Shown here: positions 1,755 through 20,077 of the stretch, in pieces
Numbering within the stretch: position 1 is the first letter of the stretch
How the letters are laid out: the number at the start of each line of letters is the position of its first letter
Assembly: GCF_016907815.1 (NCBI RefSeq)
Contig: NZ_JAFBCQ010000001.1
Span: 558,001-622,000 of the forward strand
Reading direction: 5' to 3'
Length of the DNA stretch: 64,000 nt
From: Microbacterium aurum
Lineage (GTDB): Bacteria > Actinomycetota > Actinomycetes > Actinomycetales > Microbacteriaceae
Program-made: the position numbers and the translations under genes
Notes under the pieces: model-generated
Database searches by the model: none
What the model saw: only the letters and a program-made list of their open reading frames with translations
What the model was told of the DNA's origin: nothing

Positions 1755-2948
1755 TCAGACCGCGCGCAACCCGCCGCCGAGGTCGACGGGGGTGCCGTCG
1801 ATGTTGCCCACGATCCCGCGGATGATGCCAACACCGTCGGCGCCGCGCAGGCTCTCGTACCAGGCCTCGGTGGCGTCCACGTCGAACGCGTGCGTCTCGT
1901 AGCCGCGCTTGCGCGCCCGCAGCACGAGGTCGCCCGCGCGCTCCGCGCGCATCTGCTCGTACCGCTTCAGGGTGTCTTCGACGCTCACGGTGTTCGTCGC
2001 GAACGCGATGCCGAGCGCGAAGGCATCCTCGAGCGCCGAGCACGCGCCCTGCCCGATGTCGGGCGCCGTGTTGTGCGCCGCATCGCCGAGGATCGCGACG
2101 CGCCCTTTCGCCCACGTCGAGAACGGCGTGATGTCCCAGATCTCGACGCGATTGAGGGATGCCTCGGGATCGATGGCATCCACCAGTGCCTGCACGCCGG
2201 GAGCCCACCCGTCGAACGCCGCACGCAGCGGTGCGACGCCGTCGGCGCGGTCGTACTCGAGCCCCGCCGGCTGCGGCACGTCGAACCAGAAGTAGAACCG
2301 GTCGCCCGCGACGGGCATGACCGCCGCGCGCTTGCCGTCGGCGACGTAGGTGGTCCACGCGGTGGCGCGGCCGATCGCGGCATCCGCCGGGATCAGCCCG
2401 TTGAAGTTGGTGTACCCGGAGTACTCGCGCACGATCTCGGGCGCGCCGTCGGGCTGCACGTAGTCGCGCGTGATCGAACGCGCGCCGTCGGCGCCGATCA
2501 GCAGGTCGCCCGTGTCGGTCGTGCCGTCGGCGAAGGTCACCGTGACCTTCGTGCCGTCATCGGCGATGCCGACCACCTGCCGCCCGAGGTGGATGCGATC
2601 CATCCCGACGCGCTCCATCAGCAGCGCCTGCAGGTCGGCGCGCGCGACGGGGTAGGGCTTCTGCCCTGCCATCGCCGTGACCGGGGCGAGCGAGAAGTCG
2701 CACATCGTCTCACCGGTGTGTCCCTCGAGGTAGACCATGTCGGCCATGTCGCCGCCGAGGGCGGCGACTTCGGCGCCGACGCCGAGCCAGTTGAGCACCT
2801 TGACGCCGTTGGACCACAGCGACAGCGCCGCGCCGACCGGCTTGTTCTCACGCATCCGGTCGTAGATGACGACCTCGTGTCCGAGTCGTGCGAGCGCGAT
2901 CCCCGCGCTCGTCCCGCCGATGCCCGCGCCCACGATGATGACCTTCAC
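1755..2948 (-). CDS. hpxO: FAD-dependent urate hydroxylase
   Basis: A 397-residue flavoprotein monooxygenase that converts urate to 5-hydroxyisourate with NAD(P)H and O2 in the cytosol. The FAD-binding GAGIGG is at residues 7-12, GADGARS lies mid-protein, and the second FAD motif GDAAHNTAPDIGQGA is near residue 290. The overall sequence reads like HpxO rather than a salicylate or aromatic hydroxylase. It is the last gene of a leftward operon uraD-uraH-hpxO, 63 bp after uraH, so the three successive steps from urate to allantoin are encoded together. Confidence 0.88.
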   Translation of the reverse strand: MKVIIVGAGIGGTSAGIALARLGHEVVIYDRMRENKPVGAALSLWSNGVKVLNWLGVGAEVAALGGDMADMVYLEGHTGETMCDFSLAPVTAMAGQKPYPVARADLQALLMERVGMDRIHLGRQVVGIADDGTKVTVTFADGTTDTGDLLIGADGARSITRDYVQPDGAPEIVREYSGYTNFNGLIPADAAIGRATAWTTYVADGKRAAVMPVAGDRFYFWFDVPQPAGLEYDRADGVAPLRAAFDGWAPGVQALVDAIDPEASLNRVEIWDITPFSTWAKGRVAILGDAAHNTAPDIGQGACSALEDAFALGIAFATNTVSVEDTLKRYEQMRAERAGDLVLRARKRGYETHAFDVDATEAWYESLRGADGVGIIRGIVGNIDGTPVDLGGGLRAV

Positions 2949-3011: not shown

Positions 3012-3332
3012 TCACGACCCGCGATACGTCGAGTACGCGAACGGGCTCAGCAGCAACGGCACGTGGTAGTGCGGACCGTCTGCGACGGTGAACGCGACCG
3101 TCACCGACGGGTAGAAGGTCTCGACTCCCTGCGCCGCGAAGTACGGCCTGGTGTCGAACCTCAGCGAGTAGTCGCCCGGCTCCAGCACGTCCGGACCGAG
3201 CGCGAGCCGCCCGTCGGCGTCGGTCTGTCCCGACGCGACGGCGACGCCGTCGGGTCCCGCCAGGGTCACCGCGACGCCCGTCGCCGGCACACCCGCGGTC
3301 GCGTCGAGGATGTGGGTCGTCAGGTGGCTCAT
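3012..3332 (-). CDS. uraH: 5-hydroxyisourate hydrolase (transthyretin-like)
   Basis: A 106-residue protein hydrolysing 5-hydroxyisourate to OHCU. It begins MSHLTTHILD, the usual family start with its active-site histidine, and ends in the signature YRGS tetrapeptide. The ATG at 3332 has GGAGG just upstream and lies one base from the uraD stop, so the two are translationally coupled. Length and both ends match the family well. Confidence 0.93.
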   Translation of the reverse strand: MSHLTTHILDATAGVPATGVAVTLAGPDGVAVASGQTDADGRLALGPDVLEPGDYSLRFDTRPYFAAQGVETFYPSVTVAFTVADGPHYHVPLLLSPFAYSTYRGS

Positions 3333-3333
3333 G

Positions 3334-3831
3334 TCAGTCCTCCAGGCTTGAGCGCAGGCGCAGCAGCGCGATCTGGCGCAGCTGATCGCGCGCCTCGGCG
3401 GCCTCCGCGGCGTCGTCGTTGCCCAGGCGGCGGCGCACTTCGGCGAGCATCTCTTCGGCACTGCGGCCCGCGGCGCGGATCAGGAACACGCGCCCGAACC
3501 GGGCCTCGTAGTCGGCGTTGGCCTGTGCCATGGCATCCGTCGCCGACACGGATGCCGTCGCCATCGCCGCCTGCTCGCGGGTGCTCGCTGCGGCTTCCGC
3601 CCCCGACCCCGCGGGCTTCTGCCCGATGCGCGGGTGGTGAGCGAGCGCGGCATCCAGGTCGGCGTCGCTCCAGCCGCGGGCGAGCGCGTCGGCGCGCGCG
3701 GCAGCCTCGTCGACCGAGGCGTACGGACGTGCTGCGACGACCGCGTCGACCCACGTGGGGACCGCCGCCCACACCGCGACCGTCGCCGTGGCCGTCTCGC
3801 GGTCGGTGGCGTTGAACTCGTCGAGTCTCAT
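3334..3831 (-). CDS. uraD: OHCU decarboxylase
   Basis: A 165-residue enzyme decarboxylating 2-oxo-4-hydroxy-4-carboxy-5-ureidoimidazoline to S-allantoin. The catalytic-histidine motif HHPRIG is present around residue 75, with the conserved NADYEARFGRVFLIRAAG helix further on. The ATG at 3831 was chosen because the protein then starts with the family's typical short acidic N-terminus and a TANNNT -10 lies six bases upstream. It is the first gene of the uraD-uraH-hpxO operon. Confidence 0.92.
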   Translation of the reverse strand: MRLDEFNATDRETATATVAVWAAVPTWVDAVVAARPYASVDEAAARADALARGWSDADLDAALAHHPRIGQKPAGSGAEAAASTREQAAMATASVSATDAMAQANADYEARFGRVFLIRAAGRSAEEMLAEVRRRLGNDDAAEAAEARDQLRQIALLRLRSSLED

Positions 3832-3837
3832 GCACCG

Positions 3838-3858
3838 ACCGTATCGCCGCGGCGTTTC
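3838..3858 (-). promoter_or_regulatory. Probable uraD operon promoter with GAAAC element
   Basis: Read on the minus strand this is GAAAC, eight bases, then GATACGGT. TACGGT fits the actinobacterial -10 TANNNT and ends six bases before the uraD ATG, so the transcript should be leaderless. The same GAAAC-N8 spacing occurs in front of the LOG and deaminase genes at 14961 and 15055. Confidence 0.55.
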
Positions 3859-3890
3859 GGCCCCGTAACGTGCGCTCAGCGCCCCGGGTC

Positions 3891-3998
3891 GACGGTGTCG
3901 CGTCGGCTGTGGGCCTCGCGACCGCGATGGTGCGGATGGGCCTGAAGACGAGCAAGCGCAGCGAGTACGTGAGCCCGCCCCGCCTCGTCGCTGTGTGA
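3891..3998 (+). other. Short open frame, possible 3' remnant of a gene
   Basis: On the plus strand an open frame ends at TGA 3996-3998 and encodes a tail ending KTSKRSEYVSPPRLVAV. It has no credible start and lies over the promoter of the leftward uraD operon. The residue pattern looks like a real protein tail rather than shadow, but I cannot name the family; it may be chance. Confidence 0.25.
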
Positions 3999-4019
3999 GG
4001 CGCTGCCCCGCGGCCGGGG

Positions 4020-4808
4020 TCACGCGTGATCGCCTGCGCCGTGCACCAGGTCGGAGATCTCGCGCTTGTACGCGTTGAACGCGGGGGTCGTGACATCCCG
4101 CGGCTCCGGCAGGTCGATCGGCACGGTGCGCGCGATGTGCCCGGGCACGCCGTGCGAGGCCCCACCGGTCATCACCACCACGCGGTCGGCGAGGAACACG
4201 GCCTCTTCGATCGAGTGCGTCACGAAGACGACGGTTGTGCGGGTCTCGAGGTGGATGCGCTTGAGCTCGGCCTGAAGATCCGACCGCGTCAGCGCATCCA
4301 GCGCGCCGAACGGCTCATCCATCAGCAGCACGCTCGGCTCGTTCGCGAGGACGCGGGCGATCGCGACCCGCTGCTGCATGCCGCCGGACAGCTCGCCCGG
4401 GTAACGGTCGGCGAAGCGGCTCAGCCCGACGGTCTCGGTGAACCGGTCCGCAAGCTCGCGCACACGTGCGCGCGGCAGGCGCCGCCGTTTCGGGCCGTAG
4501 GCGATGTTCTCGCGCACCGTGAGCCAGGGGAACAGCCCGTAGTCCTGGAAGACGACCCCCCGGTCCGGACCGGGGGCGGTCACGGGCCGCCCGCCGACGG
4601 TGACGCTGCCGCTCGTGGCGGGCTCGAATCCGGCGAGGATGCGCAGCACGGTGCTCTTGCCGCAGCCGGATGCGCCGACGACGGCGATGAACTCGCCCGC
4701 CGCGATGTCGATGTCGACGTCGGCGACGGCCTGCACGCCGGCCCATTCCGGACCGTAGCGCTTGCCGAGATCCTGCAGGACGACGTCGGCGGTGGTCAGA
4801 TCGGTCAT
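4020..4808 (-). CDS. ABC transporter ATPase, SsuB/TauB type
   Basis: A 262-residue ATPase energising import across the membrane. Walker A is GASGCGKST, the signature is LSGGMQQR, Walker B is [11 protein letters not shown], followed by the H-loop THSIEEA. This layout is typical of nitrate/sulfonate/taurine and pyrimidine-precursor importers. It starts at the ATG 4808, just 14 bp after the permease stop, and its gene order (binding protein, permease, ATPase) lies inside the purine block. A purine-derived or ureide substrate is an inference from location only. Confidence 0.85.
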
Positions 4809-4822
4809 GTGCTGTGCTCCCG

Positions 4823-5689
4823 TCACTTCACCAGGGGGCGCCCGCGCGTGAGCAGGCGGAAGGCTCCGACGAGGATGCGGTCGGAGAGGAAGCCGGCGAG
4901 GCCGATCACGATCATGCCGACGACGATCATGTCGGTGCGCACCACGTCGCGGGCGAGGATGATCGCAGAGCCGAGGCCGACGTTGACGCCGACGCTCTCG
5001 CCGAGCACGAGCACGACCCAGGCGAGCCCGAGCCCGACGCGCATTCCGTTGATGACGGCTGCCGCCGAGGCGGGCACGACGATCTGGCCGAGGATCTCCC
5101 ACCGCCTGGCGCCGAGCATCTGCCCGGCCTCGATGAGCCGACCCGGGACCTCTTTGGATCCGCTGATCGCGCCGAGCACGATCGGGAAGAACGAGGAGAG
5201 GGCGATCAGGAAGATCGTCGCCTGGTCGCCCCAGCCGATGAGGAGGCCGACGAGGGGCACCCACGCCGTCGCCGGAATCGGCCGGAACAGGTTGATGAAC
5301 GGATCGAACATCGCGTCCATCTTGTAGTAGCGGCCCATCAGGATGCCGAGGGGGATGGCCAGCACCGACGCGATGAGGAAGCCGATGAGCACCCGCAGCG
5401 ACGACGCCCCGAGGTTGACCCACAGGTCGCCGGAGAAGGCGTCGTCGTGGATGCCCCCGAATGCGTAGTCCCACAGCGACGCGACGACGTCGCCGGGGGC
5501 GGGCAGGTACCCCATCCGGATGCCGATGAGGGGAATCTCCCACGCCTGGTCGCGCCCGACCTGCCACAAGACGAGGAAGAGGAACGGGATCGGGATCCCG
5601 AGGAGGATCCGCGTGAGGAGTGCGCGCTGATTGGGTCGTTGCGCGGGAGGGCGTCGGCGCACGGGTCGCGCCGTCGTCTGCGTGGCCAT
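4823..5689 (-). CDS. ABC transporter permease, SsuC/TauC type
   Basis: A 288-residue permease with an N-terminal hydrophobic segment (ILLGIPIPFLFLVLW), about six membrane spans and the EAA-like loop EAGQMLGARRWEILGQIVVP that contacts the ATPase. The ATG at 5689 is preferred because GAAGGGCGG precedes it. A GTG at 5746 overlaps the previous stop but would put a strong hairpin inside the coding region and has no ribosome site. It functions with the adjoining ATPase and lipoprotein. Confidence 0.84.
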   Translation of the reverse strand: MATQTTARPVRRRPPAQRPNQRALLTRILLGIPIPFLFLVLWQVGRDQAWEIPLIGIRMGYLPAPGDVVASLWDYAFGGIHDDAFSGDLWVNLGASSLRVLIGFLIASVLAIPLGILMGRYYKMDAMFDPFINLFRPIPATAWVPLVGLLIGWGDQATIFLIALSSFFPIVLGAISGSKEVPGRLIEAGQMLGARRWEILGQIVVPASAAAVINGMRVGLGLAWVVLVLGESVGVNVGLGSAIILARDVVRTDMIVVGMIVIGLAGFLSDRILVGAFRLLTRGRPLVK

Positions 5690-5704
5690 GCGGCCGCCCT
5701 TCTG

Positions 5705-5738
5705 GCGTGCGGGGGAGGCCGCAGCCGCCCCCGCACGC
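5705..5738 (-). terminator. Strong intergenic hairpin between binding protein and permease
   Basis: An 11-bp perfect stem (GCGTGCGGGGG at 5705-5715 with its complement at 5728-5738) closes a 12-base loop. It lies between the binding-protein stop and the permease ribosome site, with no T-run. Such hairpins commonly act as mRNA stabilisers or partial terminators that give more binding protein than permease. Confidence 0.6.
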
Positions 5739-5742
5739 GCGA

Positions 5743-6699
5743 TCACGAGGTGAAGGAGGTGTCCACGATGTCGTCGCCCGTGGGCGTCGTGGTGATGAGC
5801 CCGATCGAGGCCATCGCCTCGGCGAGGGCGGAGAGCTGTCCGACGTACTCGTCGGACAGATCCGAGCGCAGCCAGAAGTTCGCCAGCGCCGACGTGAACA
5901 CGTCCTCGTCACCGCCGAACTCCTCGACCATGCCGGGCAGCCACTCCTCGATGTTGTCGGCCATGTAGGCGGTCGTCGCGGCGTGCGTGTCGACGACCTT
6001 CTGCACGAGCTCGGGGTTCTCCTCGATGAGCTTGCCGGTGGTGACCAGGCCGATGTTGACCTTGCCGATGGGCGTCGAGTACGGATCGACGACCTCGGTG
6101 CCGCCCGCGTTCTTCGCGATCGAGACGCCGATCTCGACGCCCATGAACGCGTCGATGTCGCCCGCGATGAACGCCGACGCCATCTCGGGCACGGGGATCA
6201 CCGACAGCTCGAAGTCCTCGGGGGTGAGGCCGGCCTCATCGATCAGCAGGCGGAGGGCGACCTCCTGGGCCGAACCCTGGACGATGCCGATCTTCTTGCC
6301 GACGAGCTCGTCGAGGCTCGACTCGCCGTTGCCGATGAAGCCGGATCCGCCGTCGGCGGCGCTCGCGATGATCTTGAGGTCGCGGCCCTGCGCGATGGAG
6401 GAGATCGTCGGGGTGACACCCGAGATCGCGAAGTCGATCGACCCCGACACGAGCGCGTCGGACAGGGCGGGCGTCGTGTCGAGCGTGACGACCTCGAACT
6501 TCACACCGTCGACGGCGTGGTCGTCGTAGAGGAACGGCTGGTAGAAGTGCGGCTGGCCGCGCAGGGTGCCGATCTTGACGGTGACGGTCTCGGCGGCATC
6601 CGACGACGCGGGTGTCGTGTCACCCGAGCTGCAGGCGGACAAGATGAGGACGGATGCCACGGCCAGCGCGGCGGCGATGCGAGGACGGAATCGTGCCAT
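5743..6699 (-). CDS. ABC transporter substrate-binding lipoprotein, NMT1/TauA-like
   Basis: A 318-residue lipoprotein. The signal ends in the lipobox LSAC with the lipidated Cys near residue 22. The fold is that of SsuA/TauA/NMT1 proteins: VKIGTLRGQPHFYQP at the start, GSIDFAISGVTPTI, then GKKIGIVQGSAQE. It begins at ATG 6699 with GGGAGTCC upstream. It faces the XRE-cupin regulator across a 191-bp shared promoter region and heads the importer operon. The ligand cannot be read from sequence; allantoin, urate or another purine derivative would fit the location. Confidence 0.83.
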   Translation of the reverse strand: MARFRPRIAAALAVASVLILSACSSGDTTPASSDAAETVTVKIGTLRGQPHFYQPFLYDDHAVDGVKFEVVTLDTTPALSDALVSGSIDFAISGVTPTISSIAQGRDLKIIASAADGGSGFIGNGESSLDELVGKKIGIVQGSAQEVALRLLIDEAGLTPEDFELSVIPVPEMASAFIAGDIDAFMGVEIGVSIAKNAGGTEVVDPYSTPIGKVNIGLVTTGKLIEENPELVQKVVDTHAATTAYMADNIEEWLPGMVEEFGGDEDVFTSALANFWLRSDLSDEYVGQLSALAEAMASIGLITTTPTGDDIVDTSFTS

Positions 6700-6817
6700 G
6701 TGAAGGACTCCCGGGGTCGGTCCGCCGACGACACGGCCGACGGACGGTGCGAGGTGCTGTGTGGCCCCAGTAAAGCGAGCGCGGTCGCGCTCGCCATGAA
6801 GGCGGTGTAACGGTTGT

Positions 6818-6835
6818 GTTAAGTCATGACTGAAC
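6818..6835. promoter_or_regulatory. Palindrome in the divergent importer/regulator promoter region
   Basis: GTTAAGTCATGACTGAAC pairs in eight of nine positions about its centre. It lies midway between the leftward importer operon and the rightward XRE-cupin gene, where an autoregulating dimer would bind. A looser palindrome sharing the GTTAAG half is at 7563-7579 in front of the allantoinase operon. Confidence 0.5.
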
Positions 6836-6890
6836 ACACGCGCAGTCGGTCGCGCATACGATGGGTCGCGCACGAGGACCGGAGGATGCC

Positions 6891-7511
6891 GTGGAAGAGA
6901 GCCCCCTGCCCGCACAGATCGGTGCGCGACTGCGTCGGCTGCGGACGGCCTCGGGCCGCTCCCTCGCGTCGGTCGCACAGCAGCTCGGCATCTCGTCGAG
7001 CGCGCTGTCGCAGATCGAGACGGGCACGATGCGTCCCTCGGTCAACCGGCTCGTCGAGCTCGTCGCCGTGCTGGGCGCTCCCGTGTCGGCGATCTTCGAT
7101 GATCTCGATCTGTTCGCACCCGACCTCGATCACGCCGCAGGTGACGTCGCCGAGCCCGTCCCGGGGGTCCTCGTCACCGGGCCGGGCGAGGCTGCCCCCG
7201 CACAGCTGGACCAGGGCGTCGTCTACCGGCGGCTGTCGCCGGCGCCTCTTCCCGGCGTGGACTTCTTCGAGTCGATCTACCCGCCTGGCTCCGCGTCGAG
7301 CGCCGACGGTGCGATGCTCGTGCATGACGGCCTCGAGTCGGGTTACGTGCGGTCGGGCGAGCTCACGTTCGAGTTCACGGAAGGCGCCGTGCGGCTCGGC
7401 GCAGGCGGGTCGCTCTCGTTCGCCGCGTCGCGGCCGCACCGCGTCGTCAACCAGACGGCGGAGGTCGCCTCGGCGATCTGGCTGACGATCCTCCCGGCGC
7501 GCGGCGCGTGA
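6891..7511 (+). CDS. XRE-family regulator with C-terminal cupin
   Basis: A 206-residue transcription factor. Residues about 10-65 are a helix-turn-helix of XRE type (SLASVAQQLGISSSALSQIE). Residues about 120-200 form a cupin barrel that in this family senses a small ligand. The GTG at 6891 follows GGAGG by five bases and is preferred over an ATG at 6861 with no site. Sitting between the importer and allantoinase operons, it is the likely local regulator of ureide uptake and breakdown. Confidence 0.8.
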   Translation: MEESPLPAQIGARLRRLRTASGRSLASVAQQLGISSSALSQIETGTMRPSVNRLVELVAVLGAPVSAIFDDLDLFAPDLDHAAGDVAEPVPGVLVTGPGEAAPAQLDQGVVYRRLSPAPLPGVDFFESIYPPGSASSADGAMLVHDGLESGYVRSGELTFEFTEGAVRLGAGGSLSFAASRPHRVVNQTAEVASAIWLTILPARGA

Positions 7512-7563
7512 ACCCCGCGGCGTTTCACACGCCCGTTACGTGGGGGTAATCGCTCGCGTCACG

Positions 7564-7579
7564 TTAAGCAATAGCTTTA
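7564..7579 (+). promoter_or_regulatory. Operator/promoter candidate of the allantoinase operon
   Basis: TTAAGCAATAGCTTTA is an imperfect palindrome and contains TAGCTT (7573-7578), a TANNNT -10 six bases before the GTG at 7585. A repressor binding here would cover the -10. The motif shares GTTAAG with the palindrome at 6818. Confidence 0.45.
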
Positions 7580-7584
7580 GAAGC

Positions 7585-8973
7585 GTGAAGACCGGTGAAG
7601 TGCAGGTGGATGCCGCGGAGCTCGTGATCCGTGCGGAGCGCGCGTGGATCGACGGTGCGTTCCGCCCGGCCGAGGTCGTCGTGCGCGGCGGCGTCATCGC
7701 CGACGTGGGGGTGCCCCACGGTGCCCCGCGCGGCGCTGTCGAAGTGCCCGAGGATGCGGCCCTCGTCCCCGGTCTCGTCGACTCGCACGTGCACGTCAAC
7801 GAACCCGGCCGCACCGAATGGGAGGGCTTCCGGTCGGCGACCCTCGCCGCGGCCGCGGGCGGCGTGACGACCCTCGTCGACATGCCGCTCAACTCGATCC
7901 CGCCGACGACGACGACCGAGGCCCTCGAGATCAAGCGGGCGGCGGCCGCGGCATCCGCCTATGTCGACATCGGGTTCTGGGGCGGCGCCGTCCCCGAGAA
8001 CCTCGGTGCGCTCGGGCCGGTCCACGACGCCGGGGTGTACGGGTTCAAGTGCTTCCTCGCACCGAGCGGCGTTGACGAGTTCGGCCACCTCGATCGCGCC
8101 CAGCTCGACCGGGCGATGGCCGAGGTCGCGTCGATCGGCTCGCGCCTGATCGTCCATGCGGAAGACCCCGACCTCCTCTCCGGTGACGGGTCGCTCGGGC
8201 GCGGCTACGCCGCCTTCCTCGCGTCGCGCCCGCCGGCGAGCGAGGAGGCCGCGATCGACGCCGTCATCGCCGCCGCGCGGCGTCACGGCGCACGCGCCCA
8301 CATCCTGCACTTGAGCGACGCCCGGGCTCTGCCCGCGATCGCCGCGGCGAAGGCCGACGGGGTCGACCTCACCGTCGAGACCTGCCCGCACTACCTGACG
8401 ATCACCGCCGAGGAGATCCCCGACGGCGCGAGCGAGTTCAAGTGCTGCCCGCCGATCCGCGAAGCGGGCAATCAGGACCTGTTGTGGCAGGGCATCCTCG
8501 ACGGAACGATCGACGCGATCGTGAGCGACCACTCGCCCTCCACCGTCGACCTCAAGCGCTCGGGGAACGGCGACTTCGGTCTCGCGTGGGGCGGCATCGC
8601 GGGCCTGCAGGTGGGGCTCTCGGCCGTCTGGACCGAGGCGCGCCGCCGCGGCATCCCGCTCGACACCCTCCTGCCGCTGTTCACGACCGGTCCCGCGCGC
8701 GTCGCGGGGCTGACGGGCGTCGGCGAGATCGTCGTCGGCGCGCCGGCGCACCTCGCGGTGTTCGGCCTCGACGACACCCTGCGCATCGAGGCGCGCGCCC
8801 TGCAGCACCGCAACCCCATCTCGGCCTACGACGGCAAGCTCCTCACGGGGCGCGTGCGCCGGACGTGGCTGCGAGGGCAGAGCGTGTACGACGCGAGTGA
8901 AGGCGGCGCCGGTGAGGCGCCGTGGCTGAGGCGCCCGCCGGCGGGTCGCCTCCTGTCGAGAGGTGCGGCATGA
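7585..8973 (+). CDS. allB: Allantoinase
   Basis: A 462-residue cyclic amidohydrolase opening allantoin to allantoate. Metal ligands are visible: HVH at residues 68-70 within DSHVHVNEPGR, the carboxylated lysine in GFKCFLAPSG at 155, and SDHSP at about 314-318. DSHVHVNEPGRTEWEGF and VETCPHYL are allantoinase hallmarks. The start is uncertain: GTG 7585 is six bases from a -10 and would be leaderless, while GTGs at 7600 and 7606 are alternatives. It heads a five-gene operon whose next start overlaps its stop (ATGA). Confidence 0.9.
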   Translation: MKTGEVQVDAAELVIRAERAWIDGAFRPAEVVVRGGVIADVGVPHGAPRGAVEVPEDAALVPGLVDSHVHVNEPGRTEWEGFRSATLAAAAGGVTTLVDMPLNSIPPTTTTEALEIKRAAAAASAYVDIGFWGGAVPENLGALGPVHDAGVYGFKCFLAPSGVDEFGHLDRAQLDRAMAEVASIGSRLIVHAEDPDLLSGDGSLGRGYAAFLASRPPASEEAAIDAVIAAARRHGARAHILHLSDARALPAIAAAKADGVDLTVETCPHYLTITAEEIPDGASEFKCCPPIREAGNQDLLWQGILDGTIDAIVSDHSPSTVDLKRSGNGDFGLAWGGIAGLQVGLSAVWTEARRRGIPLDTLLPLFTTGPARVAGLTGVGEIVVGAPAHLAVFGLDDTLRIEARALQHRNPISAYDGKLLTGRVRRTWLRGQSVYDASEGGAGEAPWLRRPPAGRLLSRGAA

Positions 8974-10055
8974 GCGAGATCCTTCAGCCCGGAATCGGGC
9001 CCATCCCCGGCGACCACTACGTCGCCGCGTCGCCGCAGACGGTGCTGTGGGGGAGGTTGCCGTGCGAGACGGATGCCCCGGTGCTGGCCGTTCCGGCCGG
9101 GGCGACCGTCACGTTCGACACCGTCAGCCACGAAGGCATCCTGCCTGATCAGGGGCAGGATCCGTTCGCCTACTTCACGGGACACGGGGTCGCGCCCGAG
9201 GCCGTGCTCACCGACGCGATCGAGATCGCGGCATCCGTCCCCCGCGACGCCGCCGCCGACGGGCCGCACGTCGTCACGGGTCCCGTCTTCGTTGAGGGAG
9301 CCGAGCCCGGCGACCTGCTCAAGATCACGGTCGTCGATCTCGCACCGCGCGTGCCGTACGGCGTCATCTCGAACCGGCACGGCAAGGGGGCCCTGCCCGG
9401 CACGCTGCCGCGCGGCCCCGAGAACGTCAGCGTCTTCACGCCGGTGGCCGGCGGCGCGGGACACCTGCCGCTCGTCGAGGGTGGTGAGCGCGTCGTGGGC
9501 TTTCCGCTCGCGCCGTTCCTCGGCACGATGGGCGTCGCCGTAGCGGGTCCGGAGCGCCCGCACTCGGTGCCCCCCGGGTCGCACGGCGGCAACATCGACA
9601 TCAACCTTCTCGTGGAGGGCACGGTCCTGTACCTGCCCGTGCAGGTGCCGGGCGCCCTCGCCTACGTCGGCGACCCGCACTTCGCGCAGGGCGACGGCGA
9701 AGTAGCCCTGACGGCGCTCGAGGCATCCCTGCGCGCGACGCTGCGCTTCGAGGTCGTGCCGCGCGCCGAGGCGCTCGCCGCCTTCGGCGAGGTCACCGGC
9801 CCCCTCGTGCGGACGGGCGAGTACCTCGTGCCGACGGGCCTCGACCCCGACCTCAACGAGGCGATGCGCAAGGCAGTGCGCGCGGCGCTCGACCTGCTCG
9901 CAGCCCGGTACGGCATGGCCGAGCACCTCGCCTACGCGTACCTGTCGGCGGCCACCGACTTCGACATCTCGCAGGTCGTCGACATCGTGTGCGGCGTGCA
10001 CGCCCGCATCCGCGAGGCCGACTTCGCCGGCGTCGAGACGGCGGGTGACGCGTGA
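8970..10055 (+). CDS. Acetamidase/formamidase-family (FmdA-type) amidase
   Basis: A 361-residue protein of the FmdA/AmdA family, which hydrolyses small amides to ammonia and acid. Recognisable features are SHEGILPDQG, GPVFVEGAEPGDLLKI, and the metal-site region GSHGGNIDINLL followed by PVQVPGALAYVGDPHFAQGDGE. It overlaps the allantoinase stop by four bases. Placed inside the ureide operon, the likely amides are oxamate or another one-nitrogen product of allantoin breakdown; this substrate is inferred, not seen. Confidence 0.78.
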   Translation: MSEILQPGIGPIPGDHYVAASPQTVLWGRLPCETDAPVLAVPAGATVTFDTVSHEGILPDQGQDPFAYFTGHGVAPEAVLTDAIEIAASVPRDAAADGPHVVTGPVFVEGAEPGDLLKITVVDLAPRVPYGVISNRHGKGALPGTLPRGPENVSVFTPVAGGAGHLPLVEGGERVVGFPLAPFLGTMGVAVAGPERPHSVPPGSHGGNIDINLLVEGTVLYLPVQVPGALAYVGDPHFAQGDGEVALTALEASLRATLRFEVVPRAEALAAFGEVTGPLVRTGEYLVPTGLDPDLNEAMRKAVRAALDLLAARYGMAEHLAYAYLSAATDFDISQVVDIVCGVHARIREADFAGVETAGDA

Positions 10056-10060
10056 GCGCG

Positions 10061-10136
10061 GCGCATAACTCAGGCTGTTCGGGGCTCAAGCCGGGGTTTC
10101 GACGTCCGCGGGCGGGGTTCTGCCTGAGTTGTGCGC
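10061..10136. repeat. Inverted-repeat element between operon genes
   Basis: GCGCATAACTCAGGC (10061-10075) and GCCTGAGTTGTGCGC (10122-10136) pair in 14 of 15 positions, or all 15 with one G-U, around a 46-base loop. It fills the only sizeable gap (106 bp) in the otherwise overlapping ureide operon. It has the look of a dispersed palindromic element rather than a terminator. Confidence 0.5.
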
Positions 10137-10161
10137 CCGCGTCGGCGGAGAGGGATGACGC

Positions 10162-11736
10162 ATGACCGAGATCCCCGCCGACCTGCGCGCGGCTTTCGAC
10201 GCGTACGAGGCCGCGATCCTCGCGAACGACCTCGATGCGCTGGATGCCGCGTTCGCGCCCGGCGCCGAAACGATGCGCGGCGACGGTGCGGGCCTGCTCG
10301 TCGGGCACGACACGATCAGCGCGTTCCGCGGCGTGCGCGGCGGGGTTCCGCCCCGGACGATCGAGCGCATCGAGTACCGCCCGCTGGCAGACGACGTCGC
10401 GCTGCTCGTGTCGGTCTCGCGCTTCCGCGGTGGTGGCACGGGACTGCAGACGCAAGTCTGGGAGCGCCTCGACGGGCGCTGGCTCATCACGGCCGCCCAC
10501 GTCACGCCGCGCGCGCAGGCGCTCGACCGGTCGGTCTGGCGGTCGGTCGGTGACCCGCTGTTCCAGGGCGCGTGGGAGGGTCCGCTCGAGGGCCTCACCG
10601 TCGCCGTCAAGGACCTCTTCGCGATCAAGGGCTACCGCATCGGCGCCGGCAACCCCACCTACCTCGACTCGGCGCGCGCCGAGACGACGACGGCTCCCGC
10701 CGTCGCCGACCTGCTCCGCGGCGGCGCGTCGCTGCGCGGCATCGCCCGCACCGACGAGTTCGCGTACTCGATCGCGGGCGACAACGCGCACTACGGCACC
10801 CCGCCCAACGGAGCCCTCCCGGGAGCCCTGCCCGGCGGCTCGTCGAGCGGACCGGCGACCGCCGTCGCGACGGGCCAGGCCGACATCGGCCTCGCGACCG
10901 ACACCGCCGGCAGCGTGCGCGTGCCCGCGTCGTACCAGGGGCTGTGGGGTCTGCGCACGACGCACGGCCTCGTGCCGCGGCAGGGCCTACTCCCGCTCGC
11001 GCAGAGCTTCGACGCCGTCGGCTGGCTCACGCGCGACGGCGTGACCCTGCAGCGCGTCGCGGACTGGTGCCTCAGCTACGACGGGTCGGACTCGACCGAG
11101 TCGGTCTTCGGTGAGTCCGGCACCGACCTGCCGTGGCGCTTCGTCATCCCGGCCGAGGCGCTGGATGCCGCAGATGCCGCCACGCGCGCCGCGTTCGAGG
11201 CCTTCGTCGCGGCATCCGCTCTGCCGGTCGAGACCGCCTCGATCGGCGACCTCGACGACTACCTCGTGCCGTTCCGCACGGTGCAGGGCGCGGAGGCCTG
11301 GCGCAACAACGGCGACTGGCTGCGCTCGCACCCGGGCGCCACGGGACCGGCCGTCGCCGAGCGGTTCCGTGCGGCCGCCGCCGTCACGGCCGCCGACGAG
11401 GCCGCAGCCCGCACCGCCCTCGCCCCGTTGCGCGCGCGGCTGATCGACCTCGTAACGGATGCCGTCCTGATCCTGCCGACCGCGCCCGGCCCTGCCCCCG
11501 CGCGCACGGCCGGCGGCGCGGGCATCGACGCCGTGCGCCAGGCGACGCTGCGGCTCACGACCCCCGCCGCCGCCGCCGGGTTGCCCGCCCTGTCGGTGCC
11601 GCTGCTCACGGTCGCCTCGCCCCTCGGCCCCGCACCCGTCGGCGTCTGCCTCGTCGCGCGCGCCGGAACTGACATCGCCCTCGTGCGCCAGGGCCTCGCC
11701 CTGCACGCCCTCACCACCGGAACGGAAGCACCATGA
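10162..11736 (+). CDS. AtzH/HpxZ-like domain fused to an amidase-signature enzyme
   Basis: A 524-residue fusion. Residues 1-125 are a SnoaL-like domain of the AtzH/HpxZ (DUF3225) kind, with TMRGDGAGLLVGHDTISAFR. From about 140 it is an amidase-signature hydrolase with the Ser-Ser-Lys triad: Lys150 in VAVKDLF, cis-Ser at 227-229 in GGSSSGPA, and nucleophile Ser251 in TDTAGSVRVPAS. AtzE/HpxY enzymes hydrolyse carboxybiuret-type or ureido-acid amides. No AtzG/HpxX partner is present. It starts after GGAGAGGG and overlaps pucG by four bases. Oxalurate is a plausible substrate. Confidence 0.8.
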   Translation: MTEIPADLRAAFDAYEAAILANDLDALDAAFAPGAETMRGDGAGLLVGHDTISAFRGVRGGVPPRTIERIEYRPLADDVALLVSVSRFRGGGTGLQTQVWERLDGRWLITAAHVTPRAQALDRSVWRSVGDPLFQGAWEGPLEGLTVAVKDLFAIKGYRIGAGNPTYLDSARAETTTAPAVADLLRGGASLRGIARTDEFAYSIAGDNAHYGTPPNGALPGALPGGSSSGPATAVATGQADIGLATDTAGSVRVPASYQGLWGLRTTHGLVPRQGLLPLAQSFDAVGWLTRDGVTLQRVADWCLSYDGSDSTESVFGESGTDLPWRFVIPAEALDAADAATRAAFEAFVAASALPVETASIGDLDDYLVPFRTVQGAEAWRNNGDWLRSHPGATGPAVAERFRAAAAVTAADEAAARTALAPLRARLIDLVTDAVLILPTAPGPAPARTAGGAGIDAVRQATLRLTTPAAAAGLPALSVPLLTVASPLGPAPVGVCLVARAGTDIALVRQGLALHALTTGTEAP

Positions 11737-12980
11737 CCACCGTCATCCCCGGCCCTGCGATCCCCGGCCCGGTGGACCCGCCCGCACGCCTGCTGATGGG
11801 CCCTGGCCCCATCTCGGCCTACCCCAGCGTCCTGCGCGCGATGTCGGCACCGCTCGTCGGGCAGTACGACCCGTTCATGACGACCGCGATGGCCGAGACG
11901 CAGGAGCTGTATCGGGCCGTCTGGAACACCACCAACGACGCGACCCTGCTGGTCGACGGCACGAGCCGCGCCGGCATCGAGGCGGCCATCGTCTCGCTCG
12001 TGCGCCCCGGCGACCGCGTGCTCGTGCCCGTCTTCGGCCGGTTCGGGCACCTGCTCGCCGAGATCGCCGAGCGCGCGCAGGCCGAGGTGCACACGATCGA
12101 GACCGAGTGGGGACAGGTGTTCCCGGCATCCGTCATCGAAGAGGCGATCGTCCGCGTGAAGCCCACCCTGCTCGCGCTCGTGCAGGGCGACACCTCGACG
12201 ACGATGAACCAGCCGCTCGAGGACATCGGCGCGATCTGCGCCCGCCATGGGGTCCTGTTCTACTCCGACGCGACCGCGTCGCTCGGCGGCAACGCGTTCG
12301 ATGCGGATGCGTGGGGACTGGATGCCGCGACCGCCGGCCTGCAGAAGTGTCTCGGCGGGCCGTCGGGCTCGTCGCCGATCACGCTGTCGGAGCGCGCCGT
12401 CGAGGTCATCCGCTCGCGCGGCCGCATCGAGGCGGGCATCCGCGAGGCGGGCGACGTCGCGGCATCCGACTTCGTGCTCTCGAACTACTTCGACCTCGGC
12501 ATGATCCTCGACTACTGGGGGCCGCGGCGGCTCAACCACCACACCGAGGCGACGAGCATGCTGTACGCGGCGCGCGAGTGCGCGCGCGTGCTGCTGCTCG
12601 AGGGGCGTGACGACGTCATCGCCCGGCACGAGCTCGCCGGCCGCGCGATGCTCGCGGGCGTGCGGGGCCTCGGCCTCGGCGTCTTCGGCGACGTCGCGCA
12701 CAAGATGACCAACGTCGTCGCCGTCGAGATCCCCGAGGGCGTGCCGGGGGATGCCGCGCGTTCGGCCCTGCTGGAGGACTTCGGCATCGAGATCGGCACC
12801 TCGTTCGGACCCCTGCACGGACGCGTCTGGCGCATCGGGACGATGGGCTACAACGCCCGCAAGGACGCCGTGCTCACGACGCTCGCCGCCCTCGAGGCCG
12901 TGCTGCGGCGGTTCGGGGCAGCCGTGCCCGCAGGCGGCGGTGTCGAGGCGGCCGTCGACATCTACGCGGGGGCCGCGTGA
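11733..12980 (+). CDS. pucG: (S)-ureidoglycine-glyoxylate aminotransferase
   Basis: A 415-residue class V PLP aminotransferase of the PucG/alanine-glyoxylate type. It transfers the amino group of ureidoglycine to glyoxylate, giving glycine and oxalurate. MGPGPISAYPSVLRAM is the family opening, DATASLGG holds the cofactor aspartate, and the PLP lysine is Lys205 in GLQKCLGGPSG. It overlaps both neighbours (ATGA before, GTGA after), tying it to the amidase fusion and allC. Serine-glyoxylate aminotransferase is the main alternative, made unlikely by the operon. Confidence 0.85.
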   Translation: MTTVIPGPAIPGPVDPPARLLMGPGPISAYPSVLRAMSAPLVGQYDPFMTTAMAETQELYRAVWNTTNDATLLVDGTSRAGIEAAIVSLVRPGDRVLVPVFGRFGHLLAEIAERAQAEVHTIETEWGQVFPASVIEEAIVRVKPTLLALVQGDTSTTMNQPLEDIGAICARHGVLFYSDATASLGGNAFDADAWGLDAATAGLQKCLGGPSGSSPITLSERAVEVIRSRGRIEAGIREAGDVAASDFVLSNYFDLGMILDYWGPRRLNHHTEATSMLYAARECARVLLLEGRDDVIARHELAGRAMLAGVRGLGLGVFGDVAHKMTNVVAVEIPEGVPGDAARSALLEDFGIEIGTSFGPLHGRVWRIGTMGYNARKDAVLTTLAALEAVLRRFGAAVPAGGGVEAAVDIYAGAA

Positions 12981-14305
12981 GCGCTGCGTCCCGCCGGCTC
13001 ACCGCGTCGCCGGATGCCGTCGCGGCAGCAGCGCGCCGCGTCATGGCGCGCTGCGACGAGCTCGCCCGCGTCACCGCGACGCCCGGGCGCATCGAGCGCG
13101 TCTACCTCTCGCCCGAACACGCCCGCGTCAACCGCCTCGCCGCCGAGTGGATGCGCGAGGTCGGCATGCGCACGTGGCAGGATGCCGCCGGCAACCAGGT
13201 CGGGCGGATCGAGGCGGTCCTGGGTCACCCCGCCGGCGTATCGAGACCATCCGACGCCCCCGCCCTGCTGCTGGGGTCCCACCTCGACACGGTCATCGAC
13301 GCGGGCCGCTTCGACGGCATCGCCGGCGTGCTCATCGCGCTCGAGGTCGTGCGGCTGCTGCGGGTGCCGACCGACACCGGCTGGGCGGTGCCGCTGCCGT
13401 TCCCGATCGAGGTCGTCGCCTTCTCAGACGAAGAGGGCACCCGGTTCGGCAAGGCACTGCTGGGTTCGTCGGCGGTCGCCGGTTCGTGGAACGACGCGTG
13501 GTGGACGCTGACGGATGCCGACGGCGTGAGCCTGCGGCAGGCGTTCCTCGAGTTCGGACTCGACCCCGCGCGCATCGGCGAGGCGGCCCGCCGCCCCGAC
13601 GAACTCGTCGCCTACCTCGAGGCCCACATCGAGCAGGGCCCCGCGCTCGACCGCGCCGGCGAACCCCTCGCAGTCGTGTCATCGATCGCGTCGGCACGCC
13701 GGTTCCAGCTCGTCGTCGAGGGTGAGGCGCGGCACGCCGGCGGCACCCCCTACGACATGCGCCGCGATGCCCTGCTGGGCGCAAGCGAAGCGGCACTCGC
13801 CGTCGAGCGCGTCTGCGCGGCGGAGCACCACATCATCGGCACGGTGGGCCGGTTCGAGGCCTTTCCCGGCGCCGTCAACGTGATCCCCGGCGAGGTGCGG
13901 TTCTCGCTCGATCTGCGCGGCGAGTTCGACGGCGAGCGCGACCGCGTGTGGGACGTGCTCGCGCGCGACCTCGACGAGATCATGGGCCGTCGTGGCCTGC
14001 GCTGGTCGGCGCGCGAGGTGCACAGCGCCCCCGCCGTGTTCTGCGCGCCCCTGCTGCAGGACGTCGTGGCCGCCGGCATCCGCGCGACTCTTCCCGTGCG
14101 CTCCGACGCGGCGCCGGTGCTGTTCAGCCCGGCCGGCCACGACGGCATGGCGCTCGGCGCGATCACCGACGTGGGGATGCTGTTCCTGCGCAATCCCGAT
14201 GGCATCAGCCATCACCCCGACGAGTTCGTGTCGGCCGGTGACGTGGCCCACGGCATCCGCGCCCTCGCCGAATCGATCCTGCACCTCGCCGCCGAGCCGC
14301 GCTGA
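12977..14305 (+). CDS. allC: Allantoate amidohydrolase (M20 family)
   Basis: A 442-residue M20-type metallo-amidohydrolase releasing ammonia and CO2 from allantoate to yield ureidoglycine. Metal-site motifs are GSHLDTV, DGIAGV, SDEEGTRFG and HIEQGPALD, and RHAGGTPYDMRRD lies in the dimerisation domain. The GTG start overlaps the pucG stop. N-carbamoyl-amino-acid hydrolases share these motifs, so the allantoate role rests on the operon. It is the last gene, ending the chain allantoin to ureidoglycine. Confidence 0.86.
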   Translation: MSAASRRLTASPDAVAAAARRVMARCDELARVTATPGRIERVYLSPEHARVNRLAAEWMREVGMRTWQDAAGNQVGRIEAVLGHPAGVSRPSDAPALLLGSHLDTVIDAGRFDGIAGVLIALEVVRLLRVPTDTGWAVPLPFPIEVVAFSDEEGTRFGKALLGSSAVAGSWNDAWWTLTDADGVSLRQAFLEFGLDPARIGEAARRPDELVAYLEAHIEQGPALDRAGEPLAVVSSIASARRFQLVVEGEARHAGGTPYDMRRDALLGASEAALAVERVCAAEHHIIGTVGRFEAFPGAVNVIPGEVRFSLDLRGEFDGERDRVWDVLARDLDEIMGRRGLRWSAREVHSAPAVFCAPLLQDVVAAGIRATLPVRSDAAPVLFSPAGHDGMALGAITDVGMLFLRNPDGISHHPDEFVSAGDVAHGIRALAESILHLAAEPR

Positions 14306-14967: not shown

Positions 14968-15047
14968 ACGCTAGAACCCGCGTGTTTCCGGGGTGTGCCT
15001 GCGTGTTTCCAGGCCGTGACAGCGCGGAAACATCGCCCGGATACCGT
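14968..15047. promoter_or_regulatory. Divergent promoter region with three phased TGTTTCC boxes
   Basis: TGTTTCC occurs at 14983-14989 and 15004-15010, and its complement GGAAACA at 15026-15032, spaced 21 and 22 bp. The outer boxes each lie exactly eight bases from their own extended -10: TAGCGT (minus, 14968-14973) for LOG and GATACCGT (15040-15047) for the deaminase. Both -10s end six or seven bases from the start codons. The spacing of two helical turns fits a cooperating regulator. Confidence 0.6.
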
Positions 15048-15054
15048 GACGAGC

Positions 15055-16422
15055 ATGTCTCTCCTCGTCACCCACGCGCGTCTCATCACGATCCCCGCCG
15101 GCACCGCCGACCCCGGGTACATCGAAGACGGCTGGATGCTGATCGAAGACGGCCGCATCGCCGCGATCGGGTCGGGGACGCCGGATGCCGCGGCCGACGA
15201 GACCCTCGACGTCGCGGGCGCCTTCGTCGCGCCCGGCTTCGTCTCGAGCCATTCGCACCTGTTCACGAGCGGCCTGCGCGGCCTCGGCGTCGCCGACACG
15301 CTCTACGGCTGGTGCGACGCGATGCTCGGCACGACCGCGCACATGACGCCCGAGCAGCTGTACTGGTCGACGCTGCACGGGTCGCTCGACTTCCTGTCCA
15401 ACGGCGTCACGACGGCGTACAACTTCACCGACCCGCTGCAGGCGTGGGAGTCGATGGTCGACGGCAAGCGCACGGGCACCGCGGGCATCCGCGGACTCGA
15501 GTACCACTACCGGCAGCCCGACGGGACGCTTGATGCGGGCATCCGCTTCGTGGATGCCTCGGGCATGGACGTCACGGTCGGCAGCTCCGACGAGGTTTTC
15601 GACCGCTTCGCCGCCGAGGTCGCGCACACCCGAGCGATGGACGCCGACTTCGCCCTCGGCTCGTCGATCATGGGCCAGGTGCAGTGGTCGCCGCATCCTG
15701 AGGCCGCCGAGTTCGAGGTCGAGGCGATGCGTCGCTACGGCGTGACGAACCAGGCGCACTTCCTCGAGTCGCCCGAGGCGGTCGAGCACCAGCAGTCCAA
15801 GTTCGCGCTGTATCGGGATGCCGGGGCCCTCGGCCTCGGGCTCATGTTCGGGCATTTCATCCAGACGACCCCCGAGATCATCGCCGAGTCGGTGGCCGGC
15901 GGTGCGTCGATGTCGTGGCAGCCGGCATCCAACGGTCGCCTCGCGTCGGGTGTCGCGCTGGTGCCCGAGATGCTCGAGATGGGGATGAAGGTCGGTGTCG
16001 GGCTCGACGATCAGGCGTGCACCGATGTGAGCGATCCGTGGCAGAACATGCGGATGGGCATCTACATGCAGCGGGCGCGCACGAAGGATCCGCTGTCGAT
16101 GATGCCCGAGCTCATGCTTCGCCTGCACACGCTCGGCGGTGCCGAGATCATGGGCGTCGACGACCGCGTCGGATCGCTCGAGGTGGGCAAGTTCGCCGAC
16201 TTCGTCGTCGTCGACCCGCGGATGCCGGATGTCGGACCGCTGTGGCATCCCGTCCGCTCGTACGTGCTCGCGATGAGTCCCCGCAACCTCAAGGCCGTCT
16301 ACGTCGGCGGCCGCCTCGTGAGCGAGAATGGGGTGTCGACCAACCCGCTGGCCGCCGAGGCGTCGGCGAAGGTGCACGAACTGCCGGCGGCAGTCATCCC
16401 GCTGCGCGGTCACCCGCACTGA
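15055..16422 (+). CDS. Amidohydrolase, guanine/8-oxoguanine deaminase-like
   Basis: A 455-residue metal-dependent amidohydrolase of the AtzB/TrzN/guanine-deaminase group. The first metal pair is His66-x-His68 in [11 protein letters not shown]; later ligand regions are QAHFLES and [11 protein letters not shown], where most relatives read GTDG. The C-terminus has the usual beta-sandwich with [15 protein letters not shown]. Deaminating guanine to xanthine would feed the dehydrogenase beside it, but the altered second-shell motif leaves the substrate open. The final 29 bases overlap the convergent dehydrogenase gene. Confidence 0.75.
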
Positions 16423-19150: not shown

Positions 19151-19950
19151 GCGAGCTCCGCCCGGATGCGTGACGCGAGCTCGATGCTGACCGCCCGCCG
19201 CCAGTCCGCGGCACCGAGCGGGTCGGTGTAGTAGCCGGGGGCGGATGCCACGGCATCCGCCAGATCCGTCTCGGTCGGCAGCTGCGCGAATCGCAGCACC
19301 GTCGGCGTCGCCGTCGCAGCCGTCACGGTGAAGACGCTCGTGCCGTCGGGGTCGACGCGGCCCGTCACGACGGCGCCGGAGCGGCCGTGCTCGGCGAGGG
19401 CGATCTTGCGCAGCAGGGCGCGCGAGGCGAGCGCGTGCGCGGGGATCTCGACGGCGCGTAGCACGTCGTCGCGGCCGAGGATCGTGGTGCCGTTGCCCGT
19501 CACGAGATCGGCCACCGGCATCCGCCGCTCATCGTCTTTTGTCCAGATGACGGCGACGGCGTCGAGTGCGACGCTGAGCGACACCATCGCTCCGGCGGCG
19601 AACGCGCGGCAGATGTTGCCGCCCACGGTCGCGGTGTTCCAGATCTTGAAGGATGCCAGCAGGGCGTTCGCGGCCGCCGGCACGAGCTGCGCGGCGGGCC
19701 AGTGCGCGGGAGCTGTCGCGGCCCACGCGACGAGGTTCGCGATCGTGCACGTCGCTGCGACGCGCAGGCCCTCGGGGGTCTCCTCGAGGTCGGGCCAGGC
19801 GAGCCCGGTGAGATCGACGAGGCCGGTCGTGGCGGGCTGCGGCTCGCTCATGATCCAGGTGCCCCCGGCGAGGAGAGCCTCGCCGGGGGCAAGCTGCAGA
19901 TCCTCCCGAGAACGGGCGACGCGGTACGCCTGCACCGACGTGATGTCCAT
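19147..19950 (-). CDS. Xanthine-dehydrogenase-type FAD-binding subunit
   Basis: A 267-residue CoxM/XdhB-like subunit passing electrons from the iron-sulfur clusters to the final acceptor. FAD-contact motifs are ALLAGGTWI near residue 25 and [11 protein letters not shown] in the middle. The ATG at 19950 has GCAGGAC upstream. It is first in the pair with the fused Fe-S/Mo subunit. It diverges from xdhC-like gene 20078 across a 127-bp region with CGTTTCG and TGTTTCA 11 bp apart, so both sides are probably co-regulated. Confidence 0.83.
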
Positions 19951-20015
19951 GTTGTCCTGCTCTCCGGATCGCGGCCCTAGCTCGCTGTCGCGCCCGATCG
20001 AGTGAAGCAGGCCCC

Positions 20016-20070
20016 CGTTTCGCGGGTGTTTCATGGCCGCAACACGGCCGCAATCCGGGGCGCATACCGT
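20016..20070. promoter_or_regulatory. Divergent promoter region between the FAD subunit and XdhC-like genes
   Basis: CGTTTCG (20016-20022) and TGTTTCA (20027-20033) are spaced one helical turn. CATACCGT (20063-20070) gives a TANNNT -10 ending seven bases before the ATG at 20078. The boxes resemble the TGTTTCC elements at 14983-15032. Confidence 0.45.
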
Positions 20071-20077
20071 GAATGGC

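Follow-up and report, generated by a model that had tools for sequence, protein, structure and literature searches.

Which enzymes act on oxalurate once the aminotransferase PucG has formed it? The question is raised by a 64,000-nucleotide stretch of the Microbacterium aurum genome (contig NZ_JAFBCQ010000001.1, positions 558,001 to 622,000; hereafter the window), where a gene for an FmdA/AmdA-family amidase (fmdA) and a gene joining an AtzH/HpxZ domain to an amidase (the fusion) are found between the genes for allantoinase (allB) and PucG (pucG), an arrangement that was confirmed here in both domains and coordinates. The association of the two genes with the oxalurate branch of purine breakdown is well supported, and we put at roughly 0.6 the probability that the fusion and FmdA are the final two enzymes of an hpx-type uric acid/allantoin route that runs from oxalurate through N-carboxyoxamate and oxamate to oxalate. 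Together they would probably replace the separate enzymes of Klebsiella and supply the step that is missing in Actinobacteria. The initial annotation had proposed that the two genes finish oxalurate; the amidase lineage, the AtzH chemistry and the role of FmdA as a replacement for HpxW are added to it here.

Association of fmdA and the amidase fusion with pucG

The fusion is a single open reading frame (ORF; 10162-11736) in which an AtzH-like domain (PF11533, 64.9 bits, gathering cut-off 27, residues 3-115) is followed by an Amidase domain (PF01425, 160.4 bits, residues 139-507). The genes had been described as all coupled, which holds for three junctions with 4-nt overlaps (allB/fmdA, fusion/pucG and pucG/allantoate amidohydrolase (AAH)) but not for the fmdA/fusion junction, where 106 nt containing an inverted repeat separate the fmdA stop from the fusion start. 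Among the 75 relatives in which both parts gave a match, the distance at this junction is estimated at a median of 50 nt and does not exceed 30 nt in 30 of them.

Conservation of this arrangement was assessed in the best 80 of 93 loci found with patterns derived from the window protein, a set that is biased towards near kin. The order allB-fmdA-amidase-pucG-AAH is kept on one strand in 72 of the 80, so the arrangement is not due to chance. Five of the eight exceptions (L044, L069, L072, L075 and L107) are truncated by a contig end. A sixth, L104, lacks allB within the 2 kb preceding fmdA, and a contig end does not account for this. In L104 (1-2000), the fmdA-fusion-pucG-AAH genes follow a membrane-transporter-like gene on a contig labelled Chloroflexota; its fusion is 71% identical to that of the window, so the contig may be misbinned.

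A family sample of 150 genomes yielded pucG in 42 (E ≤ 1e-100), the amidase in 45 (E ≤ 1e-70) and fmdA in 42 (E ≤ 1e-60). pucG and the amidase are both present in 42 genomes and both absent from 105, with three genomes encoding the amidase only and none encoding pucG only. For pucG and fmdA, the corresponding numbers are 39 with both, 105 with neither, three with fmdA only and three with pucG only (G040, G109 and G123). The Fisher p values, which ignore kinship, are 4.6e-34 for the pucG-amidase pair and 7.7e-29 for the pucG-fmdA pair. Distant matches (54-55% identity) account for four of the 42 genomes with fmdA: those in G044, G056 and G101, which have no pucG, and an unlinked match in G034 (55%). 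Amidase matches of 33-34% identity in G054, G114 and G124, which pass 1e-30 and fail 1e-70, were excluded from these counts. At least seven genera include one genome with pucG and one without, and within those listed fmdA follows pucG in 7/7, while the amidase follows it in five and is kept without pucG in two (G066 and G139). As an explanation of the two genes' presence, the initial proposal therefore stands with regard to association (amidase in 42/42 genomes with pucG versus 3/108 without, fmdA in 39/42, and gene fusions), whereas the substrates and the order of both steps are our inference.

As to whether the fusion occurs mostly outside ureide operons, it does not: in 34 of the 42 genomes no more than 2 kb separates the amidase from pucG, and in 36 of 39 its distance from fmdA is roughly 600 nt or less. 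Co-occurrence also persists over distance. The pucG and amidase genes are 457 kb apart in G007, where fmdA remains beside pucG, and 22 kb apart in G070, while in G031, G042 and G105 pucG is on a different contig from fmdA and the fusion, which stay together. G090 resembles G007, with pucG and the amidase on different contigs, but as the amidase there lies at the start of a 6.7-kb contig, this may reflect an assembly break. These arrangements indicate that the parts tend to remain together in a genome even when they have been moved. In a wider phylum sample, the amidase search (E ≤ 1e-30) matched 27/396 genomes, mostly with distant amidases that align over the amidase part only and were not counted as the fusion. 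pucG was matched in 9/396, where the five close matches are all accompanied by an amidase match and the four distant ones (40-43% identity), which may be other aminotransferases, are not.

Both protein families are common, as FmdA was found in 4/14 and Amidase in 12/14 control genomes, so the two genes could be general amide-scavenging functions that travel with the ureide operon and have no role in the pathway. We regard this as highly improbable, given the order kept in 72/80 loci, the co-occurrence of unlinked genes and the fusions.

A proposed route from oxalurate to oxalate

The window encodes xanthine dehydrogenase-like proteins, HpxO, hydroxyisourate (HIU) hydrolase, OHCU decarboxylase, AllB, AAH and PucG, with the HpxO, HIU hydrolase, OHCU decarboxylase and ABC transporter genes on the minus strand, divergent from the allB operon. 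The region is therefore predicted to encode a route from purines to oxalurate like that of the Klebsiella hpx genes, a point absent from the initial annotation. HpxO (1755..2948) is a further observation here, as a flavin adenine dinucleotide (FAD)-dependent urate hydroxylase of the Klebsiella kind in an actinobacterium. Among solved structures, PucG scores highest with 3nnk (571.3 bits), which is named ureidoglycine-glyoxylate aminotransferase (UGXT) and which we take to be the K. pneumoniae protein, followed by 3isl (PucG, 421.3 bits) and 1vjo (277.4 bits). With the upstream enzymes and a UGXT-like PucG all encoded in the window, oxalurate is the expected product.

Known enzymes for the subsequent steps were sought in the M. 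aurum genome. A search with the GGT-family profile (PF01019) gave no matches, which indicates that there is no HpxW, and a search for AllG likewise found no match; the idea of an HpxW-family or AllG protein elsewhere in this genome was accordingly dropped. A GGT-family gene is present in 7/7 genomes in which fmdA is missing or distant (G034, G039, G040, G066, G109, G123 and G139), but also in 6/13 whose fmdA is adjacent to the operon or close to it, which served as the comparison for the idea of a stand-in, and this distribution was not used as support. Six GGT-family proteins were scanned and two were compared with PDB entries: one is closest to 6j3a (a GGT), while that of G123 is HpxW-like (158 and 178 bits with chains of 5hft) yet scores 289 bits with 2nlz. 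In that genome, fmdA was recognised only in two fragments adjoining the fusion and pucG (L007 3074-3361); its HpxW-like protein is L205.

We propose that PucG would supply oxalurate, from which the amidase domain, with its Lys-Ser-Ser residues, would remove the terminal ureido NH2 as ammonia to give N-carboxyoxamate. The AtzH domain of the same chain would then decarboxylate N-carboxyoxamate to oxamate, a reaction analogous to that of AtzH on 1,3-dicarboxyurea during the degradation of cyanuric acid, and FmdA would hydrolyse oxamate to oxalate and ammonia in place of Klebsiella HpxW.

The best NCBIfam model for the amidase half is PRK08310 (NF006169; 345.6 bits, under its cut-off of 391), while the two AtzE models give 152.7 and 147.3 bits (cut-offs 461 and 425.75). 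In a tree of 50 amidases, three AtzE proteins form a group of their own and the fusions fall in a 39-row group with support of 100/100. An AtzE lineage for the amidase half was thus ruled out by model scores and by a separate clade; this separation is established from AtzE alone, as the tree includes no Klebsiella HpxY. The proposal that HpxZ and HpxY are one chain here, Z first, is correct in that a Z-type domain precedes an amidase; this amidase, however, falls outside the AtzE lineage, and its identification as HpxY is not supported. The 39-row group also includes a Caballeronia PRK08310 amidase (526.1 bits) encoded directly after a free hpxZ, so the pairing of Z with this amidase exists unfused too; the window protein differs from PRK08310 amidases in carrying an N-terminal AtzH domain. 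On that Caballeronia plasmid (L137 7772-10568), a DUF1116 (AllG-like) gene, the free hpxZ and the PRK08310 amidase gene follow xanthine dehydrogenase-like genes, possibly as a further oxalurate-type pathway. Lys150, Ser227 and Ser251, which we assign by their spacing as the amidase triad, are invariant in 36/36 orthologues and agree with the Ser-cisSer-Lys pattern of the amidase signature family. The absence of an X/AtzG homologue from the window had been noted initially and was borne out: a profile of three AtzG proteins matched just its three source records at E ≤ 1, with no AtzG/HpxX (DUF4089) in the window or in the loci of the 80 relatives, the rest of the genome not being searched.

The AtzH domain scores 53.9 bits with the NCBIfam HpxZ equivalog (cut-off 135), compared with 185 for the free Caballeronia HpxZ. 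Eight of the nine pocket residues of AtzH from plasmid pADP-1 are present in the window protein, and the equivalents of seven (Tyr22, Arg46, Arg63, Arg66, Arg73, Gln106 and Gln108) are invariant in 36/36 orthologues; the exceptions are Arg96, found in 28/36, and Phe94, which is replaced. According to the AtzH study (PMC6219798), Tyr22 is essential and Arg46 is important. By analogy, this domain would be an N-carboxyoxamate decarboxylase.

FmdA belongs to its superfamily (PF03069, 112.3 bits, gathering cut-off 27), shares the GGN and GDxHxxxGDGE stretches of 2ii1, 3tkk and 2f4l, and falls far below the formamidase equivalog (NF045496, 76.5 bits, cut-off 500). A total of 120 FmdA stretches, that of the window included, were collected, and four containing a stop (L015, L018, L022 and L118; probably match overshoot) were dropped to leave 116, a set that includes repeated loci of one organism, such as the window and L006. 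Arg127, Arg136 and His137 are conserved in 116/116 of these, and Arg196 and His198 in 114/116 each. Solved relatives were aligned (3b9t, 5ubu, 3tkk, 2ii1 and 2f4l): Arg-His at 136-137 is absent from the four that align there, and the Arg at position 196 is absent from 5/5. The subfamily residues Arg136-His137 and Arg196 would be consistent with a negatively charged substrate such as oxamate, and we suggest that FmdA may be an oxamate amidohydrolase of a second, unrelated family that takes the place of HpxW.

The order of these steps could be reversed, with FmdA acting on oxalurate first and the fusion hydrolysing oxamate or a carboxylated intermediate, as gene order and fusions alone do not fix the reaction order. 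However, G040, G109 and G123 give no fmdA match and G034 only a distant one, whereas none of the 42 pucG genomes is without the amidase, which we count in favour of the amidase acting first. E. coli stops at oxamate (PMC11326118), and AtzE-type chemistry on the ureido end precedes AtzH decarboxylation (PMC6219798). A reversed order is therefore rather improbable.

Three described systems resemble this proposal in part. The Klebsiella hpxWXYZ gene set forms the oxalurate-to-oxalate branch of the hpx route (PMC3560190 and, in part, general knowledge). Shared features are a UGXT-type aminotransferase, HpxO-type urate oxidation, and an AtzH/HpxZ domain plus amidase beside a candidate for the oxamate step; here, in contrast, Z is fused to a PRK08310-like amidase, no HpxX/AtzG was found, and FmdA is encoded instead of the GGT-family HpxW. 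The atzG-atzE-atzH genes of Pseudomonas sp. ADP (1-carboxybiuret hydrolase and dicarboxyurea decarboxylating amidohydrolase; PMC6219798) offer an amidase with AtzH, the same two-step logic as proposed here and the AtzH catalytic residues, but as separate chains with AtzG, with another substrate and with an amidase of another clade. The oxamic transcarbamylase AllFGH of E. coli also uses oxalurate and gives oxamate (PMC11326118), but is phosphorolytic and consists of unrelated proteins. Among the matches listed from a search of largely non-subscription literature, no title or abstract opening describes an AtzH-amidase fusion or FmdA as an oxamate hydrolase.

Losses, other settings and domain arrangements

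Several observations weigh against this assignment. An AtzH-domain match is absent genome-wide from G034, G036, G039, G053, G066 and G070, all of which keep the amidase, and an AtzH-like match is also absent genome-wide from two species with an FmdA-amidase chain (G542 and G543). The amidase tree implies seven or more changes between presence and absence of the domain across 31 rows, some of them on weakly supported branches. Such repeated loss indicates that the domain is dispensable, which fits a step that is also spontaneous but fits a minor role equally well. N-carboxyoxamate would lose CO2 just once, to give the wanted product, so catalysis would be helpful and not required; this is unlike 1,3-dicarboxyurea, the AtzH substrate, where AtzH would prevent a dead end. 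Either bond is in principle open to cleavage by amidases of this family. Together with the tolerated loss of AtzH, this suggests another reading, in which the amidase would split oxalurate at the other bond to give oxalate and urea directly, FmdA would act on another small amide of the route and AtzH would be structural. This is unlikely, given that 7/9 AtzH pocket positions are invariant in 36/36 orthologues, unlike a mere spacer, and that it leaves unexplained both the presence of fmdA in 39/42 pucG genomes and the FmdA-amidase fusion in two species. In addition, the oxalurate routes reported in PMC11326118 and PMC5270733 go via oxamate.

The remaining points concern gene linkage and context. 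Two loci (L085 and L110) lack fmdA at its operon place, with an fmdA of 78% identity located elsewhere in the L085 genome, and the amidase occurs without pucG in G039, G066 and G139. Linear plasmids of Rhodococcus sp. PD04 and R. rhodochrous GD02 (L136 and L194, ~5573-11029) carry fmdA directly before the fusion with no pucG nearby, where the neighbours are an ABC transporter, a major facilitator superfamily transporter and an LLM monooxygenase, perhaps as a ureide or imide route of another kind. Genes close to the fusion in G434 encode a creatininase, an amidohydrolase, a luciferase-like monooxygenase and an ABC transporter of the NMT1 type. Given these other nitrogen-compound settings, the substrate may be wider than oxalurate, or the FmdA-fusion pair may serve in other routes with oxalurate or a comparable acyl urea as their end point. 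The same settings could mean that both proteins act on a different ureide or imide of the operon, such as carboxylated ureides, ureidoglycolate or damage products, and not on oxalurate. We consider this quite improbable, since the co-occurrence is with pucG itself in 42/42 genomes, unlinked cases included, and the M. aurum genome has no match to the known AllG- or HpxW-kind enzymes for oxalurate or oxamate.

The proposed pathway of amidase, AtzH domain and FmdA is encoded in several domain arrangements. Across 142 loci with an amidase match above 150 bits, several of which show the same place, AtzH shares the frame of the amidase in 124; of these, 112 also have a neighbouring fmdA, 10 have none nearby, and in two FmdA is part of the frame as well. 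In the other 18, AtzH was not found in 17 and is separate in one. The family sample has AtzH in the amidase frame in 39/45 genomes. FmdA and the amidase share one frame in Microbacterium sp. AK009 and M. kunmingense (L114 6771-9218; L115, same place), with Gly/Ala/Pro-rich linkers that differ in length. FmdA, AtzH and the amidase are in one open frame in G035 and G098 (L135 5151-8498 and L132 6260-9226), which are putative single chains. We give even odds to the broader idea that Actinobacteria possess a modular three-part oxalurate-to-oxalate machine, consisting of an amidase of a previously unassigned clade, an AtzH-fold decarboxylase and an FmdA oxamate amidohydrolase, which are shuffled into AtzH-amidase, FmdA-amidase and FmdA-AtzH-amidase chains that would pass an unstable intermediate within one protein.

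If the proposed route is correct, it would identify enzymes for the steps that consume oxalurate downstream of PucG in Actinobacteria, give the HpxZ/AtzH domain a chemical role in purine breakdown and add a second oxamate amidohydrolase family, unrelated to HpxW. It would also make annotations like "amidase" or "acetamidase/formamidase family protein" more precise in many genomes, as the spread of the operon implies.

Gene neighbourhood in the window

The features of the locus are listed in Table 1. Its closest named counterpart among the matches listed is in M. saccharophilum NBRC 108778, where the fusion is 98% identical.

Table 1. Features of the ureide region, with window positions and the matches on which each name is based
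Feature	Position	Strand	Basis
HpxO-type FAD urate hydroxylase	1755..2948	-	NF033623 552.2 bits, cut-off 500; closest PDB 3rp6
HIU hydrolase	3012..3461	-	TIGR02962 115.8 bits, cut-off 87.45; ORF start maybe overcalled
OHCU decarboxylase	3334..4023	-	TIGR03180 162.3 bits, cut-off 139.4
ABC transporter: ATPase, permease, NMT1/SsuA-type binding protein	4020..6978	-	Pfam and NCBIfam matches
Helix-turn-helix (HTH)-cupin regulator, first in operon	6861..7511	+	PF13560, PF07883
Allantoinase AllB	7540..8973	+	TIGR03178 522 bits, cut-off 357.85
FmdA/AmdA-family amidase (proposed oxamate amidohydrolase)	8970..10055	+	PF03069 112.3 bits
Inverted repeat in fmdA-fusion gap	10060..10137	.	
AtzH/HpxZ domain (proposed N-carboxyoxamate decarboxylase)	10162..10521	+	PF11533; PDB 2rcd, AtzH 6bjt
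PRK08310-like amidase domain, Lys150-Ser227-Ser251 (proposed oxalurate amidohydrolase)	10522..11736	+	PF01425; PRK08310 345.6 bits
Ureidoglycine-glyoxylate aminotransferase PucG (predicted to make oxalurate)	11733..12980	+	3nnk 571 bits, 3isl 421 bits
AAH	12977..14305	+	NF006775 483.2 bits, cut-off 479
LOG-family gene, between AAH and deaminase	14344-14961		
Guanine/8-oxoguanine deaminase-like amidohydrolase	14995..16422	+	PRK08204 174.5 bits, PRK08203 151.9 bits, both under cut-off
Xanthine dehydrogenase-like, Fe-S and molybdopterin subunits in one chain	16394..19150	-	PF02738, PF20256, PF01315, PF01799
Xanthine dehydrogenase-like FAD subunit	19147..20223	-	PF00941

The ABC transporter is possibly a ureide or purine uptake system. 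XdhA is the best NCBIfam model for the larger xanthine dehydrogenase-like protein (472.3 bits, under the cut-off of 780), and the domain of the FAD subunit begins at residue 112, so its true start is probably downstream. The LOG-family gene was matched in 11/80 related loci.

The inverted repeat between fmdA and the fusion folds with arms of 16 pairs (RNA fold z -2.45; 2/200 shuffles fold equally well). An exact search of 215 loci found its arm only in L036 and in L003 and L006, the last two being copies of the window place. Given this limited occurrence, the repeat looks like a clade-specific local element outside the operon core.

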